Below are positions 32,338-47,592 of a stretch of DNA of 64,000 nt, one piece after another; position 1 is the first letter of the stretch; every line of letters begins with the position of its first letter. The notes under the pieces are model-generated. The model made no database searches. It was not told where the DNA came from and saw nothing but the letters and a program-made list of their open reading frames with translations. The translations under genes and the position numbers were made by a program. Location of the stretch: positions 930,001 to 994,000 of the forward strand of contig NZ_CP128362.1 in assembly GCF_034274695.1 (NCBI RefSeq). The letters run 5' to 3'. This stretch comes from Chitinophaga sp. LS1 (GTDB taxonomy: Bacteria; Bacteroidota; Bacteroidia; Chitinophagales; Chitinophagaceae).

Positions 32338-32490
32338 TCATTTGGCTGTTACAATAGCATGGATTAAATCGCTGAATGTCCTTGCTTTCAGGCGAAGTTG
32401 AGCCGGGCGTTGCGCACCTTTGGCGCTAATATTGGCGGAGTTACTGCGGTTGGCAAAGGTTGAATTGGGTTGTTGACGCTGTTTGGGCAT
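32338..32490 (-). CDS. Possible 50-residue peptide gene downstream of the flavoprotein
   Basis: The frame encodes MPKQRQQPNSTFANRSNSAN followed by ISAKGAQRPAQLRLK and a hydrophobic end (FSDLIHAIVTAK). It lies 33 nt downstream of the flavoprotein stop on the same strand. TATCTTTT about 20 nt upstream of the start resembles a -7 element. It is rich in N, S, Q and R and has no cysteine, so it does not resemble the QhpC subunit of quinohemoprotein amine dehydrogenases. It may be a small basic protein, part of the operon, or a chance frame. Confidence 0.4.
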   Translation of the reverse strand: MPKQRQQPNSTFANRSNSANISAKGAQRPAQLRLKARTFSDLIHAIVTAK

Positions 32491-32523
32491 GCTGGAGGTT
32501 TAACAATAAAAAGATACGAAATT

Positions 32524-34047
32524 TTATTGATCAGCCTTCATCATCACCCTGTTATATACTAACCATCGGATAAGGTCCATTCCTAATAATTGGATGCCTT
32601 CTTTAGCGGTTCGCCTGTCTAAGAGATGAACCATCTCTACTACCGGCTTTTCATTCACATATACAAAAGGTGCTTCATGACCGGGTATCCTGATGCCTTG
32701 TTCATACTGAATGAGCTCTTTTCCTAATACAGGGATTTGTTCTACTATAGCAGCAGGGTTTGTTATCAACAGATCATCTGCACTTAATTTCAATACCTGG
32801 TCCTGTTCAATAAAAAGCGCTTTGCTTCGTTTCTCCCAAAACGGACTGTCATAAATATTTTGTGACTGATAAAATTGCTGCGTCCATTTCACATGCTTAC
32901 TCACCTCATCTGCCACCATGTTTTCATAAAACGCTATCCCCGCTGCTGCATCTCCTTTTAATAGTGTATTTACGACTACCGCTCCCTGCACGGCAGTTTT
33001 TAATGCTTTTTGCACCCCCTGTGCAGATAAAGGGTCCATGGTAAACACCGCATCTCCTATTTTAATAAAATTCTTCCCTACAGGCGATTCATCTACATAA
33101 GCAGTAGCGGTACACATCTTTACTTCACCAAAGTAGCCTGAATTTATCAATTGAGAATCCCTTATCAATTGAACATCACTCATCAATTTAGAATCCTTCA
33201 TTAATTGGATATCCCTCGTCAATTGGATATCCCTCGTCAATTGAAAATCTCTCATTAATTGAACATCCTTCATCAATTGAGAATATCTAATCAATTGAAC
33301 ATCCTTCGTCAATTGAGACCTCCGCATCAATTGAGAATCCTTCAACAAAAACTTCCGCATCAATTGAGAACGTCCCATCTTATCCACAAAAAACGCTAGC
33401 ACTGAATTATATCTCTGCACCTCACCCGGATCCGCAAATACAAACCCCATTCCCCCTCCACCCCAATACCAACAACTCTCCCCCGCTTCAATAAAAGTCT
33501 CAATAGATGAAGAACACCTCGCATACGCCGCCACCGTAACCGGCAATATAGCTCGACGGCGCCCCTTTAAGAGAGGTCGCCGTCCTGTAGCCACTGCCAG
33601 AAATCTTGCTGAAAATGATTGTTCCTGTTCTATAAAAACATCCCACCCGCCATGTATATTCTCTATCGGATACGCATTACCAAAAATCACACGCGCACCT
33701 GATGCATTCAATAATAACTGATCAAACCATCCTCTATCCACATGCCAACCACCTTCTTTTTCCACCACCTCATTACTCTCCCATAATAATAAAGAACGGG
33801 GAGACAAACGCTTTTCCACACCCATACCTGAACCCATACCCACACCCACACCTACACCTACACCAACATCCACTCCCAATACCTTCAACCAATGCTCCAC
33901 ACCTGGTGATAACGAAATCCCTACATGTGGCCTTGGAAACTGCATCTTCTCTATTATCACCACACTATACCCAAACTCAATCAGCCGCTTTGCCATCGCA
34001 CTCCCAGCTGGTCCTCCACCGAAAATACAAATGTCATACTTTGTCAT
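32524..34047 (-). CDS. FAD-dependent oxidoreductase (LodB/QhpG-like) with an internal hexapeptide-repeat tract
   Basis: 507 aa. The Rossmann motif GGGPAGSA lies at residues 10-17. The second FAD motif is GDAVFTMDPLSAQGVQKAL (about 330-350), as in flavin monooxygenases and tryptophan-halogenase-like proteins. LodB and QhpG of this group make the protein-derived cysteine tryptophylquinone (CTQ) cofactor of LodA and of quinohemoprotein amine dehydrogenases; that role is inferred here from the adjacent LodA-like and radical-SAM genes. Two oddities: a GV-repeat segment at about 59-76, and a tract of about 77 residues (224-300) made of xQL[MTI]xD-type hexapeptides, both in frame. The gene overlaps the radical-SAM gene by 14 bp. 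The repeats could abolish or modulate activity. Confidence 0.83.
   Translation of the reverse strand: MTKYDICIFGGGPAGSAMAKRLIEFGYSVVIIEKMQFPRPHVGISLSPGVEHWLKVLGVDVGVGVGVGVGMGSGMGVEKRLSPRSLLLWESNEVVEKEGGWHVDRGWFDQLLLNASGARVIFGNAYPIENIHGGWDVFIEQEQSFSARFLAVATGRRPLLKGRRRAILPVTVAAYARCSSSIETFIEAGESCWYWGGGGMGFVFADPGEVQRYNSVLAFFVDKMGRSQLMRKFLLKDSQLMRRSQLTKDVQLIRYSQLMKDVQLMRDFQLTRDIQLTRDIQLMKDSKLMSDVQLIRDSQLINSGYFGEVKMCTATAYVDESPVGKNFIKIGDAVFTMDPLSAQGVQKALKTAVQGAVVVNTLLKGDAAAGIAFYENMVADEVSKHVKWTQQFYQSQNIYDSPFWEKRSKALFIEQDQVLKLSADDLLITNPAAIVEQIPVLGKELIQYEQGIRIPGHEAPFVYVNEKPVVEMVHLLDRRTAKEGIQLLGMDLIRWLVYNRVMMKADQ
33147..33377. repeat. 18-bp tandem repeat inside the flavoprotein gene
   Basis: Twelve near-identical tcaattg-anchored units run end to end, eleven of 18 bp and one of 33 bp (the latter is one unit plus a diverged 15-bp unit). 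Each encodes a hexapeptide such as SQLMKD, VQLIRD or IQLTRD. The total is 231 bp, keeping the reading frame. Confidence 0.93.
33818..33873. repeat. 6-bp repeat encoding a Gly-Val/Gly-Met tract
   Basis: Degenerate CCYACA-type units give a GVGVGVGVGMGSGMGV segment within the FAD-binding half of the flavoprotein. It is a second in-frame microsatellite in the same gene. Confidence 0.8.
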
Positions 34048-35392
34048 AACCAGGCATCAATCTGTTTATCCTTTCATAAGACTGCAATGTATAATGCAGC
34101 CATCCCCTGATATAATCACAAGCACCTCTGCCTCTTTCCAATACCTCATGATGACAACCACCTCCACATAAATACCTCGCCCAACAACCACTACATGGCT
34201 GTTGATGATGTACATGTCGCTCTGTCAACCATGCCTGTTGTAAAGCAGCATCCACACCTTTATCCACACTACCCATCTCCGCCCGGGAGTCATTCACGAA
34301 CCTATGACAAGCCGCCAATTCCCCATTTGCAGATACTCCCAAATACCCCGCACCAGCTCCACATGGATAAGGTCGATGTGTAGACTTCGCAATTTCTTTA
34401 TAAGCATTCACCATATTCAAAAACGGATATCGACGTCCATTCAACACCGCCTCTTCAAACTGTAACCCACAAGCTATCATCTCCGCTAATAAATGCTCGA
34501 GATCATAAGCACTCATTTCATTCGCCCCATTATCCGCCCGCAATAATGGCGAAAATCCTACACTATGAAATCCCATATTAATAAACGTGTCCAACGCCTT
34601 ATGAATGTGAATATTCATCGGCGTAACAGTCACCCTTGCAGATACCTGCATTCGTTTTTGTAATGATAACAAAGGCGAGATATTCGCCATTACCTGGTCA
34701 TAAGTACCCTTTCCATTTTTAAAAGTTCGTATCCGATCATGTTCCTCCTTCAACCCATCTAAACTAATCGTCACCGCAAAACCATACTCTTCAAAAAAAG
34801 AAGCATCTTCCTCCCTAATCAAAGTACCATTAGAAGTAATCGAGAATCCAATATCCACTCCGCGTGCCAAAGCCTGCTTCGCAGCATACGCAGTAGCCAT
34901 TCGTATCCCAGCCCTATTCATCAGTGGCTCACCACCTAAAAAAGATAACTGCACCTTATCACCAGCAGTCTTATCCTTCAACAACAAATCGACCGCCTTA
35001 AAAGCCATCTCTGCATTCATACTACTCGCCGCGCCAGTTCCAAATTCACCCTGCCCCGCATAGCAATAACTACACCCCATATTACAACTCTGCGATATGG
35101 CCAATGACAATGCATGCAAAGGAGGATCGGGAATTGTATCATCTATCAAAACAGGTCCATCTATCTCCATACCTAAAAGCCCTAAAGCAATAGATGCATC
35201 ATCTTTAGAAGATAATAATGAAGATATAAAAGCCGTCTGCTCAGGGTTGCCCCTGAACAAACGGCTGCCATTTGGTAAAAAGATTAAAGGCTCACCACTA
35301 CCTGGTATCATATGGACATGCGCAGATCCAGGAGCTGCATCTTTTGCAATCTTGGCCGCCAGCTTAGTGGCGAGCTTATTATATGTACCCAT
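34034..35392 (-). CDS. Radical SAM/SPASM protein, QhpD-like peptide maturase
   Basis: 452 aa from the ATG at 35392 (MGTYNKLATK); an upstream start at 35458 is in frame, but those 22 residues come from a duplicated junction repeat. The radical SAM motif is CNMGCSYC (Cys103, 107, 110). The C-terminal SPASM region has YPCGAG, AACHRF, PCSGCWARYLCGGGCHH and ACDYIRGWLHYTLQSYER, closely resembling the maturase of quinohemoprotein amine dehydrogenase (QhpD), which makes thioether cross-links in a peptide chain. The likely substrate is the LodA-like protein encoded upstream, since no QhpC-like peptide is present. It overlaps the flavoprotein gene by 14 bp. Confidence 0.88.
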   Translation of the reverse strand: MGTYNKLATKLAAKIAKDAAPGSAHVHMIPGSGEPLIFLPNGSRLFRGNPEQTAFISSLLSSKDDASIALGLLGMEIDGPVLIDDTIPDPPLHALSLAISQSCNMGCSYCYAGQGEFGTGAASSMNAEMAFKAVDLLLKDKTAGDKVQLSFLGGEPLMNRAGIRMATAYAAKQALARGVDIGFSITSNGTLIREEDASFFEEYGFAVTISLDGLKEEHDRIRTFKNGKGTYDQVMANISPLLSLQKRMQVSARVTVTPMNIHIHKALDTFINMGFHSVGFSPLLRADNGANEMSAYDLEHLLAEMIACGLQFEEAVLNGRRYPFLNMVNAYKEIAKSTHRPYPCGAGAGYLGVSANGELAACHRFVNDSRAEMGSVDKGVDAALQQAWLTERHVHHQQPCSGCWARYLCGGGCHHEVLERGRGACDYIRGWLHYTLQSYERINRLMPGYDKV

Positions 35393-35612
35393 TATGCCTG
35401 TTTTTGTAGGATCTGTGTTCTTTGTATTCTCTCCGCTAAAGCTTATTCCTAAGCTCACCAGATATAACCATTATGCCTGTTTTTGTAGAACCTGTTTTCT
35501 TGTATTCTCCGCTAATGCTTATTATCAAGCTCACCAGATATACCCATTATGCCTGTTTTAGTAGGATCAATTTCCTTTATACTCTCCACAATCTCCCCAT
35601 CACGCCTGTTTT
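35390..35612. repeat. Tandem duplication of the LodA-like/radical-SAM gene junction
   Basis: The core cattatgcctgttttt (or catcacgcctgtttt) recurs at 35390, 35469, 35545 and 35598, with unit length about 76-79 bp and a shorter first unit. On the coding strand every copy contains a start-like RTRATGG; the first overlaps the LodA-like stop as TGATG. The copies give abortive short peptides (MGISGELDNKH and MVISGELRNKL), and only the last opens into the radical SAM protein. A 36-codon frame (35512-35622) crosses two copies. Confidence 0.85.
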
Positions 35613-37870
35613 TTACCCCCATCAGAATCCAACGCATCATTCCCCTTCACCAAAAAATTCAACTCCCCTTCCCAATCCAAAAACAAATCATCATAAGTCA
35701 GCAAACGACTATCTGCCCGATTATCCGGAATATAATTCCCACTCCGCTTCTTCGCCATCCAGTTATCCCCCCGACTAATCCCATCCGGACCCGGCACCAC
35801 ATTCACATAATCAGGTCGTGACGCTGCCCAGTAATAACAAGCACACTCTCTATAATCATTCTGCCATGGCGCACATAACCCCTGTGTTAACTCACCAGCA
35901 TTAATAATATCATTATTAATTGCCGTACTATTCTCCTCAAAGAAATTATTCACCGTCATCACCACGCGCACCAGATTAGCATTACCAGTATTCAGATCAG
36001 CCGCACTCACCACCACCTCTGTATTCGACTCATCTTTCGTAAAGTAGCACTCCACTTCCTTCCCCTGATGCTGTAATACATATGCCAACCCGTTAGACCA
36101 CTCCATAAAAGACACTCCATTCGGATTAAAGGTATTGATCAAAGGCAAATTTCCGCTCCGTGGAAAAGTAGGTCCTTGTGTAGGCACCATAGTCGGTTTA
36201 CCTGCCACGCCTACTAACCGATGATACAAGAGATGTGAAAATTCCTCCTCCGTTTCCACAATGAAGTTGTTATTCTCAATCAAAGTGATCCCTTTAAACG
36301 CACGTCTCCACAAGTTTCTAAAGTCCATCTCCAATCCAGGAAAACAATTTGAAATCGCACTCCTTGCCATCACAGAATAAGGATTCCCATTCCCTTTATA
36401 ATGTAACTGACCATATACATCCGCCACAGGAATACTAGTCGTCGTACTGGTATTCAACTTCGTCGCACCTGCCTGAAACATAGCAGACGCCGCACTCTGA
36501 ATAATCGTATGAATCTGTCTGTAAGTAAAACACAACGCCCTGCCATCCGCACCACGCATCATGGCTGGCATTTTACGTCTTTCCTCATTGGATAAGTTAC
36601 CAATGGTATCCGGTCTGCGCAATGCACTGTCAAACCACGTACTCGTAGAAGGTGTACCAATACCATTAAATACCCGTTCATGAATCGCCCTCACCGCCAG
36701 GTTATCCACAATAGAAGGGGCCATGATCGGTTCATACATCCTGCCAAAGTCATTTGAATCCTGTGCAGGCATCATACTCGCAGGTCGTGGTCTGCCATAA
36801 TAATTATTCCCATTCATGATAGCGGTATTCATGAGGCGTACCGTTTCCAACGCTCTTCTTACGATCTCCTGCGCTTCTTCTATAGGCACTTCTTTATCCA
36901 CATCCGGACCTAATAAGATTTGCTCTATCTCATCTGTCACCACACGTACCGGCAATGTATCCGGTGCATACGCTGGTGGTCCTGCACATACATGCGCACT
37001 TGCTGTCAACAAAGTTCCATCTGATTTTTTCAACTCAATGGTGATTCTGCCATCACACTCATCATCCACATATCCCCAACTCACCCTGTTATTACCCTGA
37101 TCATATCCCGCAAAAATACCCGCAGGATTAGTCAAAATCGGTCTTTCCTGATTACCTTCCACATAATTGAACCAGTCTCCATCCTTACTATACAATAAGA
37201 AGTCATCTCCATATTTTAAATACAATGGATCTGGCTCCGGCGCACTCCCGTCATCAGGAATCCTCGTGGTAGAACAACCATAGATCCTTCCAGGCCCAGG
37301 TGTGAACCTAAATCGAATTTGAGGAAAATCAGTCGTAGGCTGAATAAACTGCACATGGCCCAGTGGTAATTTTCTACCCGAAACAAAGTTGGCGCACTCT
37401 CCATCCACGGGTATCAATTGATGCGACTGTATATAAGTGATCTCCGCATTGATCTTATCCTTCTCACTCTGTGTACGACGATACAATTTTATATTCGCCA
37501 GATGTACATGCCATGAAATACTATCCAGATTATAACCCGCTTTTGTCAACAGGTCTATCGTCAGAGGAACCAACTGATCCGGATTGTCCGTCGTAATCGC
37601 AAACACTTCCAGGAAAGGTGCTACAGGCCGCACTGTACCATTTTTCACATCTATGTTAGTCGCATCTTTGAAGATGACTTTCTCAGGTGTGAATTTTGTC
37701 ATGATCCCTGTGGCAGGATCTACTTTATAAGATTCCTCTACTGTAATTTTTCTAAAATCAAGTGGATTTGTCGGGTCTACATCCAGCCTAAAAGCATCCA
37801 TAGGCAATGAAGAGGAACCCAATCGCCCAATAGCGATAGGAGGCAAAATCCTTAAACCAGAAATTTGCAT
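35600..37870 (-). CDS. LodA/GoxA-like CTQ quinoprotein oxidase
   Basis: 756 aa. The start MQISGLRILPPIAIGRLGSS matches the LodA-family N-terminus with its IGR(L/I)G motif. The two residues that form cysteine tryptophylquinone appear conserved: Cys509 in NCFPGLEMD (family pattern C-P-G-[IL]-E) and Trp681 in CYYWAASRPDYV, after APWQNDYREC (family pattern PWQ-x-D-F/Y-x2-C). The 172-residue spacing is closer to GoxA than to LodA, as I recall those proteins. Known members are lysine, glycine or other amino-acid oxidases releasing ammonia and hydrogen peroxide. There is no signal peptide. The substrate is not readable. Neighbouring radical-SAM and flavoprotein genes are probable maturases. Confidence 0.87.
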   Translation of the reverse strand: MQISGLRILPPIAIGRLGSSSLPMDAFRLDVDPTNPLDFRKITVEESYKVDPATGIMTKFTPEKVIFKDATNIDVKNGTVRPVAPFLEVFAITTDNPDQLVPLTIDLLTKAGYNLDSISWHVHLANIKLYRRTQSEKDKINAEITYIQSHQLIPVDGECANFVSGRKLPLGHVQFIQPTTDFPQIRFRFTPGPGRIYGCSTTRIPDDGSAPEPDPLYLKYGDDFLLYSKDGDWFNYVEGNQERPILTNPAGIFAGYDQGNNRVSWGYVDDECDGRITIELKKSDGTLLTASAHVCAGPPAYAPDTLPVRVVTDEIEQILLGPDVDKEVPIEEAQEIVRRALETVRLMNTAIMNGNNYYGRPRPASMMPAQDSNDFGRMYEPIMAPSIVDNLAVRAIHERVFNGIGTPSTSTWFDSALRRPDTIGNLSNEERRKMPAMMRGADGRALCFTYRQIHTIIQSAASAMFQAGATKLNTSTTTSIPVADVYGQLHYKGNGNPYSVMARSAISNCFPGLEMDFRNLWRRAFKGITLIENNNFIVETEEEFSHLLYHRLVGVAGKPTMVPTQGPTFPRSGNLPLINTFNPNGVSFMEWSNGLAYVLQHQGKEVECYFTKDESNTEVVVSAADLNTGNANLVRVVMTVNNFFEENSTAINNDIINAGELTQGLCAPWQNDYRECACYYWAASRPDYVNVVPGPDGISRGDNWMAKKRSGNYIPDNRADSRLLTYDDLFLDWEGELNFLVKGNDALDSDGGKKQA

Positions 37871-37879
37871 ACAATATGT

Positions 37880-38117
37880 TTATGTGGGTGAATTAAATGG
37901 TTACAAGAATGATGACATTCGGAAATGCGATCAATCTTCCGGTAAAAAATAAACAGTTACGTTAGTGATGATATCGGTTACTTCTATCCATCTTCCAGTA
38001 AAAACTTAAACAGTTACGCTAGTGATGATATCAGCTACTTCTATCCATCCTATCATAAAAAATAAACAGTTACGCAGATCAATTCCTTCCTAAAAAAACT
38101 AAACAGCGCCACCATCC
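37880..38117. repeat. 57-bp degenerate tandem repeat between the ferritin-like and LodA-like genes
   Basis: The core aaacagttacg recurs at 37951, 38008 and 38064, with degenerate copies at 37895 and 38101; flanking gatgatatc and tctatccatc segments repeat as well. It fills the whole 247-bp gap between the two genes; no gene lies in it. Confidence 0.82.
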
Positions 38118-39626
38118 CTACTTCATACACACCTTATCCCCCGCCAATATCGCATCCGCCACTTCCATCAACTTCTTATCCGCCGCCTGCAATGAATACA
38201 AATAAGTACTATACTGCTGATTCCCAAACGCCAGCAACGCTGATATAATCCCCGAAGAAGCATCCAGCAAATCCTTATGCACCCGCCACTTATTCTTCTC
38301 CCCAAATGGCAGATCCAGCGTATAAGGCGACAAAAACGGTGGTCCCGCCTTCTTATCCGTTCCCCCACCTGCAGGCAAATTCATCAACACATTCGCCAAC
38401 GTTCGCAAATTATACATCTCCCCAAACGTCGCATGTATAATCATCCCTCTCGGTGAATTGACCATATCATTATACCCATCTCCCAACAAAAAACTATGCG
38501 TTAAAAAATTCAACAACATCCGATAACGCACATCGAATAAATTCGCCCAGAACTTCGTCTGAAAATCCGTAATCATACTCACCCCATCACTCGGTATAGC
38601 ACTCTGCTCAGGAGATACATAAGGGTTCGTGAGAATATTCTTAGAAGGATTAAACGTTTCAGGCAATTTCCGCCATGCCTTATAAATATTCAAAAACCGC
38701 TGGAAATGCGATTCATCTGCATCATCCGCATCCGGGTTCTCCCCCTGCTCTGCAATCGCTTTCACAGCAGCAACGGTATCTGTACGACAAGTTAATGGCA
38801 CCACCAACACATTCGGTGTATTCGCCGGACTCGCATGCGTTGAATTCCCCCTCGCACCATGATCATACCCACGTTGCCATTCATCCGGCTTCGCCTGAAA
38901 AGGATAGGTCTCCACACCAAAGACATCATCAGGTATCATCTCTTCATTTTCCAACAATTCAATGATGCTTTCAAACAACACACTAATCGGATCACCTATA
39001 TTCGCCGAAGGCAGCAACGCTTTAATCTCCTGCTTGATCGCCTTTGTCTCTGCATCATCGCTATCCTGTACATTCAGCCACCCTGCAGGTGACTCTGCAT
39101 ATACATACTTCGCCAGCGATGCTTTGGACAATGGCTCTAACGTAAAATCAAACGGATACAAAGATGAATCATAAGGAAAATCCTGCCTGGCAAAATTCAA
39201 TGGCGCACCGATCACCCGCAATACATTTTGAATAGATACAAAATGCCCCATCTCTTCCTTCGCAATACCCATGATGACTTCCTGCCAACTCTTCACCAGG
39301 TCTTTCTGTGCATCAGGCACATGGTCGCCACCCAGGCTGTAGGCGGCATAAAGGTATTGCACCATAAGACTGTGCTCTAACTCCGCATCCACATGGAGCA
39401 TATAAGTTAACCAGTCCTTAGGATTGAATTCCGGCGGAATCAGCGGGCCTGCGGTAATACCTTCCGCACTAAATGTAGAGGCATCTCCTGTAATAAATCC
39501 GGAGACAGCTTCTGCCGTACCTTCCGTACTAATAAACGCTGCTGCTCTCAGGGCGGTGACACCCCTTCTTTCAGGACGTGCCTGATCCAGCAGAAATGAC
39601 AAATGTCGCTGCATGCTACTTCTCAT
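38118..39626 (-). CDS. Ferritin-like-domain protein related to VioB-type iminophenylpyruvate dimer synthases
   Basis: 502 aa. The ferritin-like helical domain (about 70-230) carries carboxylate/His metal-ligand-like motifs in HVDAELEHSLMVQYLYAAYSL and IAKEEMGHFVSIQNVLRVIGAP, followed by the FDFTLEPLSKASLAKYVYAESP block typical of the VioB-type domain. The C-terminal half is helical and unassigned. VioB acts on the imine product of an amino-acid oxidase. By analogy this protein may act on the product of the LodA-like oxidase encoded next to it; that is inference. It is the first gene of the minus-strand cluster. ATG at 39626; MQRHLSFLLDQARPE near residue 5 is an alternative start. Confidence 0.8.
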   Translation of the reverse strand: MRSSMQRHLSFLLDQARPERRGVTALRAAAFISTEGTAEAVSGFITGDASTFSAEGITAGPLIPPEFNPKDWLTYMLHVDAELEHSLMVQYLYAAYSLGGDHVPDAQKDLVKSWQEVIMGIAKEEMGHFVSIQNVLRVIGAPLNFARQDFPYDSSLYPFDFTLEPLSKASLAKYVYAESPAGWLNVQDSDDAETKAIKQEIKALLPSANIGDPISVLFESIIELLENEEMIPDDVFGVETYPFQAKPDEWQRGYDHGARGNSTHASPANTPNVLVVPLTCRTDTVAAVKAIAEQGENPDADDADESHFQRFLNIYKAWRKLPETFNPSKNILTNPYVSPEQSAIPSDGVSMITDFQTKFWANLFDVRYRMLLNFLTHSFLLGDGYNDMVNSPRGMIIHATFGEMYNLRTLANVLMNLPAGGGTDKKAGPPFLSPYTLDLPFGEKNKWRVHKDLLDASSGIISALLAFGNQQYSTYLYSLQAADKKLMEVADAILAGDKVCMK

Positions 39627-45149: not shown

Positions 45150-46082
45150 ATGAGTGCAAATTATTCTCGACTCCTTCGGGATGACGACTTAGTACAACAT
45201 TTTATTGAAAAAGTTCTTCAATTCAGAACTACTCCAAAAATCATCAGGAAAATTGTGACAAGTGAGAAAATGTTGATGGATTTTAAGGAGGAAGAAAACA
45301 CGTTAATTAGTACAAAGCATAGAGACAGAGATTATGTAAGTGAACTAGATAGATGGAACTTAAGAGAACGTATCATTTCCGAATTGTATACACTACAAAG
45401 ATTGGAGAATGAGGATGAAACAACACTGGGGGCAGGAGGTGCCTTACCTCGCATACCTGTAAGATCAGAAAGAAGAGCCTTCATACTAATAGGGCCTCCG
45501 GCATCAGGAAAATCTTCTATAGCAAATGCTATATCTGAAGATGAAGGTGCTATCATCTTAGATTCTGATTTCGCCAAAAGGAAATTGCCTGAATTTGAAT
45601 ATGACTGCGGGGCAACCCTTGTTCAGGAAGAATCCAATAAAATTGTTTTTGGCTTTGGAGAAAACAATCCACAAAAAATTCAATCATTATATAACCGGGC
45701 TATTGAAAATGGGAACAATTTGGTAATTCCTAAAGTTGGACCAGATCCAAAATCTATAATTAAACTCGCCGAAACGCTGACTAAAATTGACTATCAGGTC
45801 AACTTAACATTAGTTTCTCTAAAACGGAGAGAAGCCACCATCAGGGCATTACATCGTTTTAATACTACCAAAAGGTATGTTCCACTGGGGTATATATTTG
45901 ATCAGGTTGGAAACGACCCGCTGCTGACATATTACTTAGTGAAAGAGAAAGGACAGGAATTTTTCAGCAGCTTTGGAGCTATTAGTACAGATGTTAATCT
46001 AAACGAAGCCCCTGAATGCATTGATCTAAAAGGAGATAATCCGGCTAAAAAATATAAACTTAATCAAGATCGATTTTTTTAA
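45150..46082 (+). CDS. Zeta-toxin-like P-loop kinase
   Basis: 310 aa. The Walker A motif GPPASGKSS lies at 115-123, followed by AIILDSDFAKRKLPEF (DSD-x3-K pattern of zeta toxins) and an Arg-rich lid region (KRREATIRALHRF...). Zeta toxins phosphorylate UDP-N-acetylglucosamine-type sugars or related nucleotides and poison cells. A 110-residue N-terminal helical region is extra to the classic toxin and may contain its own inhibitory element. A small basic protein gene starts 15 nt downstream; the order toxin then partner is reversed from the epsilon-zeta arrangement. Confidence 0.83.
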   Translation: MSANYSRLLRDDDLVQHFIEKVLQFRTTPKIIRKIVTSEKMLMDFKEEENTLISTKHRDRDYVSELDRWNLRERIISELYTLQRLENEDETTLGAGGALPRIPVRSERRAFILIGPPASGKSSIANAISEDEGAIILDSDFAKRKLPEFEYDCGATLVQEESNKIVFGFGENNPQKIQSLYNRAIENGNNLVIPKVGPDPKSIIKLAETLTKIDYQVNLTLVSLKRREATIRALHRFNTTKRYVPLGYIFDQVGNDPLLTYYLVKEKGQEFFSSFGAISTDVNLNEAPECIDLKGDNPAKKYKLNQDRFF

Positions 46083-46427: not shown

Positions 46428-47537
46428 TTAAATATTCAGTGCATAATGCGTACTCCTCCCACCACCTCCAATATAAATAACCGCCCCCATCACCAACAGA
46501 TCCTGCAAATCTCTCGTAGCTGTAGCCTTTGATGTTTTCGTTATAGACATATACTTCTTCGCATTCATCCCTCCTTCAAAACCTTCAGGCCCCGCATCCA
46601 GCATTTTCAATATCGCCTTCGTCTGCCGCTCATTCATCTTATCTCTTAAAAGATCCACGAACTTTGTTTTCTTCAATGTAAACACAACCAGTTGCGTCGC
46701 TTCTATTTGCGCCTTCAAAATAGTAGTTACGAAGTAATGCACCCACTCCGTAATCTCATTACTTCTCTGGGCAGATTTGAGGTGTTGATAATAAGCTTTT
46801 CTATCCGCTTCGATAGTCTGGGATAGACTTAACAATACAGGCCTTCCTACAGTCTGTGACAAAGCCTTCTCAGCAATCGCTCTTCCTATTCTGCCATTAC
46901 CATCCTCAAAAGGATGAATAGATTCAAAATACAGATGTGCAATTGCAGAACGAATCGCTGGGTTCCTAATGGCCTTATTACCCCCTGGAGCAGTATCATT
47001 GAACCACTGAATAAACTGACTCATTTCTACAGCCACACTAGCCGAAGGCGGTGCCTCATAATGAACGGTCTCTTTTCCAAATGAGCCGGATATCACCTGC
47101 ATGGGAGACGTTCCTTTTCTCCATGCACCAATATTAATATGACTATTTCCCTGCATCAGCAGGTGATGCCATTCGAACAGCATTTTCTTTGTCAGCTTTT
47201 GATGATAGGTGTCGCGCACGGTCACCATCAATTCACCAGCGCCAGCAGCACTAAGGTCTTTAAAAGTATGATGTGGAGTAGGCAGGCCTAGCTTATTTCG
47301 AATAGAAGAAATCACATCCTGCCGGGTCAGAAATTCGCCCTCGATTGCAGAAGTTTTCATCGCTTCTACTACCATGATTTGAATAATGACTTCCTGCTGG
47401 AGATCCTGTGGAATAGCGTCCAACATGCCAGTTACATAACCAGTTTTCCCCGCAAATTCATACAGCACGGCTTCTATCTCCGGCGTACTACTATAGCGGA
47501 ATTCACGCCAATCAGGTTGTTGCCAATTGTATTTCAT
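46428..47537 (-). CDS. Fic-domain AMP-transferase-like protein with C-terminal helix-turn-helix
   Basis: 369 aa from the ATG at 47537 (MKYNWQQPDW). An N-terminal DUF4172-like region carries the inhibitory helix motif TSAIEG (62-67; pattern [ST]-x-x-x-E-[GN]), marking a self-inhibited class II Fic protein. The active-site motif HPFEDGNGRIGR is complete (208-219). The C-terminal 70 residues form a winged-helix (YMSITKTSKATATRDLQDL), so the protein can bind DNA; a perfect palindrome sits directly at its start codon. It transfers AMP to a target protein; target unknown. Confidence 0.92.
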   Translation of the reverse strand: MKYNWQQPDWREFRYSSTPEIEAVLYEFAGKTGYVTGMLDAIPQDLQQEVIIQIMVVEAMKTSAIEGEFLTRQDVISSIRNKLGLPTPHHTFKDLSAAGAGELMVTVRDTYHQKLTKKMLFEWHHLLMQGNSHINIGAWRKGTSPMQVISGSFGKETVHYEAPPSASVAVEMSQFIQWFNDTAPGGNKAIRNPAIRSAIAHLYFESIHPFEDGNGRIGRAIAEKALSQTVGRPVLLSLSQTIEADRKAYYQHLKSAQRSNEITEWVHYFVTTILKAQIEATQLVVFTLKKTKFVDLLRDKMNERQTKAILKMLDAGPEGFEGGMNAKKYMSITKTSKATATRDLQDLLVMGAVIYIGGGGRSTHYALNI

Positions 47538-47592
47538 GAGCCGAATAATTAACTTATTCGGCTCAAATATAGCCATTTTCTGAGCCGATTAA
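47538..47592 (-). promoter_or_regulatory. Promoter and palindromic operator of the Fic gene
   Basis: An 11-bp inverted repeat (gagccgaataa 47538-47548 / ttattcggctc 47554-47564, TTAAC spacer) abuts the start codon. A third half-site (gagccgattaa) follows at 47582. Between them the minus strand has TATATTTG (47571-47564), a perfect -7 element that overlaps the palindrome by one base. Binding by the Fic protein's own winged helix would block the promoter. Confidence 0.7.

Follow-up and report, generated by a model that had tools for sequence, protein, structure and literature searches.

A LodA/GoxA-fold protein encoded with QhpD-like and QhpG-like maturases and a ferritin-like protein in Chitinophaga sp. 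LS1

Introduction

Two systems that make cysteine tryptophylquinone (CTQ) lie closest to the locus described here. In quinohemoprotein amine dehydrogenase (QHNDH), the small peptide QhpC is matured by a radical S-adenosylmethionine (SAM) enzyme, QhpD, and a flavoprotein, QhpG, and two of its three thioethers join Cys7 to Glu16 and Cys27 to Asp33. A Cys41-Asp49 bond is also described, the CTQ pair is Cys37 and Trp43, and QhpD holds QhpC via a leader peptide (PMC7876137). The second system comprises L-lysine 6-oxidase (LodA) and glycine oxidase (GoxA), CTQ enzymes served by the flavoproteins LodB and GoxB; the same paper equates GoxA Asp678 with QhpC Asp33 and describes the two systems as divergent routes that have converged on a tryptophylquinone. 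Here, we describe a gene cluster in Chitinophaga sp. LS1 (positions 32,338 to 39,626 of a 64,000-nucleotide stretch of contig NZ_CP128362.1, hereafter the window) that encodes a LodA/GoxA-fold protein next to both types of maturase and a ferritin-like protein.

A third point of comparison is the VioA/VioB pair, in which the product of an oxidase is passed to VioB, an iminophenyl-pyruvate dimer synthase with a ferritin-like region. Among radical SAM maturases, PapB makes Cys-Asp thioethers in small peptides (PMC11002830), and QhpD-related enzymes, chiefly maturases of peptides, are discussed in PMC11002830 and PMC10352776. In a survey that grouped 168 LodA-like proteins at E 1e-10, PF12902 (ferritin-like) genes were reported near fungal lodA genes, and the fungal group V loci resemble the present cluster in that LodA-like, LodB-like and ferritin-like genes lie close together (PMC4417212). 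As GoxA matches proteins of the present family only at E 0.014-0.053, the family probably falls below the cut-off of that survey. The term 'radical SAM' has 0 occurrences in PMC4417212, and no description of a LodA-like protein combined with a radical SAM maturase was found in open-access papers.

Results and Discussion

A LodA/GoxA-fold protein is encoded with Qhp-type maturases

Four minus-strand open reading frames (ORFs), running from 39626 to 32524, encode the ferritin-like protein, the LodA/GoxA-fold protein, a QhpD-like radical SAM protein and a QhpG-like flavoprotein (Table 1). An earlier note, made from the sequence alone, had described a LodA-type protein accompanied by both types of maturase and by no QhpC-like peptide. 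Our analysis bears this out: genes whose best models are QhpD and QhpG adjoin, and no ORF of the window, which is the part of this genome that was covered, matched a self-made QhpC profile at E <2 (the positive controls, four loci at E <1e-57, were among the profile's own source loci). PF08992 was found in 0/5 other host genomes, in a search in which no control genome gave a match. The cluster thus resembles QHNDH maturation in its radical SAM and flavoprotein maturases and differs from it in that the target is a LodA-fold protein, with no PF08992-type peptide found in the window or in the five other hosts. No heme or propeller subunit occurred among the Pfam-scanned neighbouring ORFs; the genome was not searched with QhpA or QhpB models.

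The 756-aa protein resembles LodA and GoxA in its fold, which the predicted structure model matches over nearly the full length, in its PGxE and PWQxDxxxC motifs, in its CTQ cysteine and tryptophan, and in having a flavoprotein gene close by. It differs from them in scoring under the profile cut-offs (LodA_C, PF18417, 17.3 against 25 bits; NCBIfam GoxA 20.8 against 750 and LodA 19.1 against 600 bits), in three extra conserved cysteines and in a short Cys-Trp spacing. The cluster in turn differs in its radical SAM and ferritin-like genes, in a flavoprotein nearer to QhpG, and in an oxidase that is often made as two subunits. Of the profiles searched with the four proteins, PF12902 and PF04055 exceeded their cut-offs, while those for LodA/GoxA, LodB/GoxB, QhpD and VioB fell short.

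Conservation of the gene order extends far outside the genus. A genome scan with the LodA-like protein returned 19 loci, with radical SAM homologues in 19/19 (at L020 upstream and cut by the edge of the stretch) and ferritin-like and flavoprotein homologues each in 17/19, within the sequence available around each locus. The hosts span six phyla (Bacteroidota, Alpha- and Gammaproteobacteria, Myxococcota, Acidobacteriota, Actinomycetota and Planctomycetota), and a search of plasmids (20 records) added a betaproteobacterium with the same order and Cyanobacteriota with another.

The radical SAM protein and the flavoprotein

The 474-aa protein scores 67.8 bits with PF04055 (cut-off 29.5), and its CNMGCSYC motif fits CxxxCxxC. 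QhpD was the top NCBIfam profile for 6/6 family members scanned, the five others reaching 255-350 bits. The second-best profile of the LS1 protein was that of the PapB/freyrasin ranthipeptide maturases, which differ in targeting small peptides (263 bits, missing the cut-off of 340). The earlier expectation of a QhpD-like protein therefore stands at the level of best profile; the phylogenetic tree does not settle whether QhpD or other thioether maturases form the sister group. QhpD proper was considered and rejected as an assignment, since the scores lie below the equivalog cut-off and the tree does not place the clade among QhpD, PapB-like and other maturases.

The 507-aa flavoprotein, called LodB/QhpG-like in the earlier note, proved to lean to one side of that label. 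It scores 196 bits with the QhpG model (NF049967; cut-off 240, in a protein that carries repeat inserts), and 80 and 84 bits with LodB and GoxB, far under their cut-offs of 400. QhpG also outscored LodB and GoxB in five other family flavoproteins, of which three orthologues lie above the QhpG cut-off (252-310 bits) and two short forms below it (56-61 bits). These profile scores place it nearer to QhpG than to LodB.

Assignment of the CTQ residues

When five LodA-type proteins from Bacteroidota were aligned jointly with the 756-aa protein, its PWQNDYREC matched their PWQSDAGSC and PWQTDTASC, and its YYWAASRPD matched their WWAANLP and FWPARVP. The aligned motif of the GoxA chain has Asp at 678, a residue that is mutated in PDB entries. 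As the CTQ cysteine lies four residues after this Asp (QhpC Asp33 and Cys37), the corresponding residues here are Asp672, Cys676 and Trp681. Based on this, Trp681 is the CTQ tryptophan, as had been proposed. Cys509 in NCFPGLEMD, proposed as its partner, is ruled out as the CTQ cysteine because it aligns elsewhere; both residues do lie where they had been placed (codons checked).

The spacing between the CTQ cysteine and tryptophan is five residues here and six in QhpC, as against 13-37 in most LodA-type comparison proteins. This closeness to QhpC would suit a role for the radical SAM enzyme in forming the Cys676-Trp681 bond of CTQ itself, or some other bond (for example Cys-Trp or Cys-Tyr in CACYYW), instead of Cys-Asp/Glu thioethers. 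We regard such a role as improbable. LodA-type sites with the five-residue spacing lack the radical SAM gene in 5/5 cases (L156/L171, L158/L172, L159, for which only 1.5-kb flanks are available, L160/L173 and L170/L174), and the related QhpD and PapB make Cys-Asp/Glu thioethers (PMC7876137, PMC11002830).

Cys666 accompanies the radical SAM gene

Of 70 distinct ORF segments that carry Cys666, 65 are accompanied in the available sequence by a radical SAM homologue scoring 100 bits or higher. The other five (L152, L162, L164, L168 and L169) are 3-kb cuts. L152 and L164 represent the site of L178, where the radical SAM gene is present (51%); L169 is the site of L153, with a radical SAM match at E 6e-49; and L168 is the site of L162, where the gene lies partly off the cut edge (E 5e-20). 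By comparison, 0/24 LodA-type sites without Cys666 have a radical SAM match that scores as high as 100 bits. Repeats of the same site were counted once, L130 was included and L141, which has no readable motif, was left out; 19 of the 24 sites have at least 11.5 kb of sequence, and L139, L140, L142, L143 and L159 have 1.5-kb flanks only. One canonical site without Cys666, L121, has a distant radical SAM gene about 4 kb away (28% over 195 aa, E about 1e-15, 73 bits), which we regard as unrelated.

The radical SAM enzyme might conceivably modify the ferritin-like protein or an unlinked peptide, leaving the LodA-like protein to depend on the flavoprotein alone. In favour of this, the operon includes the ferritin-like gene, peptides are the usual targets of QhpD-group enzymes, and at the LS1 locus the oxidase gene is separated by 247 nt from the gene before it and by 141 nt from the gene after it. 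We nevertheless give this explanation little credence, as the association of Cys666 is with the LodA-like protein. All inter-gene gaps are negative or below 50 nt in 28/33 loci (the exceptions being L009, L020, L027, L082 and L089), and these overlapping or nearly touching genes leave no space for a QhpC-like peptide gene. L174 has a ferritin-like gene and lacks both the radical SAM gene and the three extra cysteines. Conversely, L175 and L176 retain the radical SAM gene where neither ferritin-like query matched within 12-16 kb, a distance over which a divergent gene could escape.

A QhpC-like pattern of cysteines and carboxylates

Each of the three extra cysteines (Cys509, Cys666 and Cys678) has a conserved carboxylate close by, as is the case for the three thioethers of QhpC. 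Once identical rows were removed, the 70 rows gave 56 distinct CTQ segments. Cys666, Cys676, Cys678 and Asp687 occur in 56/56 of them; in readable rows Glu514 occurs in 55/55, Cys509 in 53/55 and Asp516 in 54/55. Asp672 and Trp681 were demanded by the search pattern, as were Cys676 and Cys678 for the 25 loci L045-L069.

QhpC sequences read GC-x8-EVD, LCQPMEADLYGC and CWWPAQVPD, with Cys, Asp and Glu at 7, 16, 27, 33, 41 and 49 when numbered from Cys37. Four cysteines, the tryptophan and the partner Asp/Glu residues come in the same order in the two proteins. Three spacings are equal: six residues for Cys27-Asp33 and Cys666-Asp672, four for Asp33-Cys37 and Asp672-Cys676, and six for Trp43-Asp49 and Trp681-Asp687. 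The unequal ones are Cys37-Trp43 (6 against 5 here), Cys41-Asp49 (8 against 9) and Cys7-Glu16 (9 against 5). When 44 family segments were scored with the QhpC profile, the median was 6.05 bits. Of 4444 copies of these segments, shuffled or reversed, none exceeded 5.3 bits, and 29 reached the 2.4 bits of the lowest-scoring real segment. Canonical LodA-type proteins are longer; five of them scored -1.5 to 5.7 bits, and 1000 of their shuffles had a 99th percentile of 1.4 bits.

A proposed maturation pathway

It seems likely that the protein is a LodA-fold CTQ enzyme that oxidises amines or amino acids and is matured by Qhp-type chemistry. What the analysis shows is a set of genes in conserved order, a predicted fold, a set of motifs and the association of Cys666 with the radical SAM gene; from these we infer the chemistry of the steps, the substrate and the role of the ferritin-like protein. 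In a first step, the QhpD-like enzyme would link cysteine sulfurs to nearby Asp or Glu carbons in the cofactor domain, always between Cys666 and Asp672 and usually also between Cys678 and Asp687 and between Cys509 and Asp516 or Glu514. At locus L175, which has a compact 426-aa frame, Cys678, Asp687, Cys509 and Asp516 are all missing, and both Cys666 and the radical SAM gene are retained. The QhpG-like flavoprotein would then hydroxylate Trp681, giving CTQ joined to Cys676. Finally, the ferritin-like protein would join the matured enzyme, either as one of its subunits or as a partner, and handle the product, peroxide or electrons. Making the extra thioether cross-links suggested in the earlier note thus appears to be what the radical SAM protein most likely does, to judge from the QhpC-like Cys/Asp/Glu motifs and the Cys666 association.

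Several observations weigh against this pathway. The confidence of the structure model is low precisely at residues 509-513 and 665-691. QhpD (TIGR03906) is the best NCBIfam model of the radical SAM protein at 298 bits, under a cut-off of 453 that the five other members also miss, and the outgroup branches of the tree with the unsettled sister group are very long. No counterpart of the QhpC leader peptide was identified for the radical SAM enzyme in this system, and the gaps around the LS1 oxidase gene point the same way. Among the 1000 shuffled canonical proteins, one outscored the family median on the QhpC profile, with 8.1 bits, and profile-profile comparison (hhalign) of QhpC with this CTQ domain was not significant (P 0.06). 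Asp687 occurs without Cys678 at five sites that lack the radical SAM gene. Lastly, at the five sites without Cys509 (L094, L107, L149, L163/L176 and L157/L175), Glu514 is retained in all five and Asp516 is absent in three. The acceptor pair of Cys509 is uncertain because 2/5 of these sites retain Asp516 and because an equivalent of Glu514 occurs in LodA-type proteins without Cys509.

If Qhp-type maturation does operate here, radical SAM cross-linking would act on a large enzyme domain instead of a small peptide. The family is a natural hybrid that comes with matched controls, namely proteins of the same fold that have Cys666 and the radical SAM gene and others that have neither, and so lets the role of a thioether in a quinone enzyme be tested.

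The ferritin-like protein

The 502-aa protein scores 98.2 bits with PF12902 (cut-off 22.3) and has a conserved Glu/His set and a ferritin-type fold; we infer that these residues form a di-iron ligand set of the kind found in ferritin-like proteins. Called VioB-like in the earlier note, it is indeed the first gene of the cluster and has the ferritin-like region in common with VioB. The likeness goes no further, as the VioB model gives 65.6 bits against a cut-off of 1250 and, with 1003 positions, is about twice as long as the protein.

The protein probably associates with the enzyme, as a subunit or as a partner. Control LodA-type oxidases have no ferritin-like match at 15/15 loci, so the oxidase reaction in itself can do without one. 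In plasmids of Nostoc, Streptomyces and Rhizobium (L090, L091 and L093) the CTQ domain is fused to a ferritin-like domain, with a LodA N-part and a radical SAM gene beside the fusion and a short QhpG-like protein next in L091 and L093. In L026 a single ORF combines the ferritin-like protein with the LodA N-part. As the N-part, CTQ domain and ferritin domain are each fused to another of the three somewhere, a single complex is supported.

Two accounts of this last step, both compatible with the maturation proposed above, were weighed. In the first, the imine or keto acid produced by the oxidase is coupled or oxidised by the VioB-like ferritin protein to a small molecule, along the lines of the VioA/VioB pair. 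The ferritin-like region and the fusions, which imply a joint function, favour it; the fusions tie the domain to the enzyme and say nothing of its reaction, the VioB similarity is partial, and the neighbouring genes encode a MacB/FtsX permease and a rhamnosidase (Pfam scan), not biosynthetic enzymes. We consider it rather unlikely. In the second, the ferritin-like protein handles peroxide, iron or electrons, protecting or re-oxidising the enzyme and making no new small molecule. The Glu/His set and fold agree with this, although the fold by itself shows no function, the control loci do without such a protein and L174, which has no radical SAM gene, has one. This account is possible, if short of probable.

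A wider idea can be offered tentatively. The family could be the surviving link between the two CTQ systems, with the QhpC peptide and the LodA cofactor domain sharing one origin, the active-site Asp tied by a thioether to Cys666 via Qhp-type maturation, and a complexed ferritin-like subunit carrying out a further reaction on the product. This would connect two cofactor-making systems thought to be separate. Profile-profile comparison of QhpC with canonical LodA-type proteins gave E 0.0016.

Table 1. Features of the cluster, in positions of the window
Feature	Position	Strand	Size or basis
Ferritin-like (PF12902) protein, first gene of the cluster	38118..39626	-	502 aa
LodA/GoxA-fold CTQ protein	35600..37870	-	756 aa
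Counterpart of the separate N-subunit of split relatives (about residues 1-470)	36461..37870	-	
Counterpart of the separate cofactor (CTQ) subunit of split relatives (about residues 480-756)	35600..36433	-	
Radical SAM/SPASM protein, QhpD-like	34034..35458	-	474 aa, GTG start as listed
QhpG-like flavoprotein	32524..34047	-	507 aa
Cys509, predicted thioether donor	36344..36346	-	
Glu514 and Asp516, alternative predicted Cys509 acceptors	36323..36331	-	
Cys666, predicted thioether donor, tracks the radical SAM gene	35873..35875	-	
Asp672, equivalent of GoxA Asp678 and QhpC Asp33, predicted Cys666 acceptor	35855..35857	-	alignment
Cys676 in PWQNDYREC, CTQ cysteine	35843..35845	-	alignment with GoxA/LodA-type and QhpC
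Cys678, predicted thioether donor	35837..35839	-	
Trp681, CTQ tryptophan	35828..35830	-	alignment
Asp687, QhpC Asp49 equivalent, predicted Cys678 acceptor	35810..35812	-	

Distribution and gene architecture

Within Chitinophaga, 28/79 genomes match, LS1 included, and the radical SAM gene adjoins in 25/25 of the loci returned, that of LS1 among them. The order ferritin-like, LodA-type, radical SAM, flavoprotein was found in 15/15 stretches of about 16 kb from the genus. One of them, L082 (genome G438), has oxidase, radical SAM and flavoprotein genes that match in separate pieces or frames, reflecting assembly error or decay. In a spread sample of Bacteroidota the LS1 genome alone matched (1/395), so the distribution is patchy. 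Matches were found in 13/193 Myxococcota genomes (8 strong) and, with mixed strength, in 17/195 genomes of the genus of the Bradyrhizobium locus. The closest named match was [Flexibacter] sp. ATCC 35208, at 99% identity. In public plasmid records the gene set is labelled hypothetical protein, radical SAM protein, ferritin-like protein and tryptophan 7-halogenase, and the present analysis gives a lead to the function of genes with such generic labels.

The oxidase is encoded as two ORFs, an N-part and a CTQ part, in 12/19 loci of the genome scan. The CTQ-part ORF measures 257-312 aa (about 285 aa) in 10/12 of these, the mechanically read frame being longer in L015 and L023, and the two ORFs overlap by exactly 4 nt in 7/12. 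In LS1, where the oxidase is a single ORF, the flavoprotein and radical SAM genes overlap by 14 nt.

The LodA-type proteins of L171-L174 and L159 combine a short Cys-Trp spacing with a WWPAQRPD-like end and have neither the extra cysteines nor a radical SAM gene; this type is possibly ancestral. In L094 and L096 the cluster is followed by tyrosinase genes and, in L094, by a multicopper oxidase gene; tyrosinase and multicopper oxidase neighbours have been reported for LodA group ID (PMC4417212).

Within the LS1 flavoprotein gene, an 18-bp tandem repeat of 11.3 copies (window 33146-33348) encodes a repetitive protein stretch, and a 6-bp repeat (33816-33878) encodes a Gly-Val/Gly-Met run. The copy number of the 18-bp repeat probably varies, since the near-identical L009 and L089 have shorter flavoprotein ORFs (497 aa in L009). 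Beyond the end of this gene, positions 32338-32523 hold no ORF of at least 60 aa.

Elsewhere in the window, a Zeta-toxin-family protein (45150-46082) adjoins a Fic/DUF4172 protein on the opposite strand (46428-47576). The LS1 genome also contains, at G000:C1:6406455-6419237, an open frame of 5272 aa that holds dozens of Big_9 repeats.

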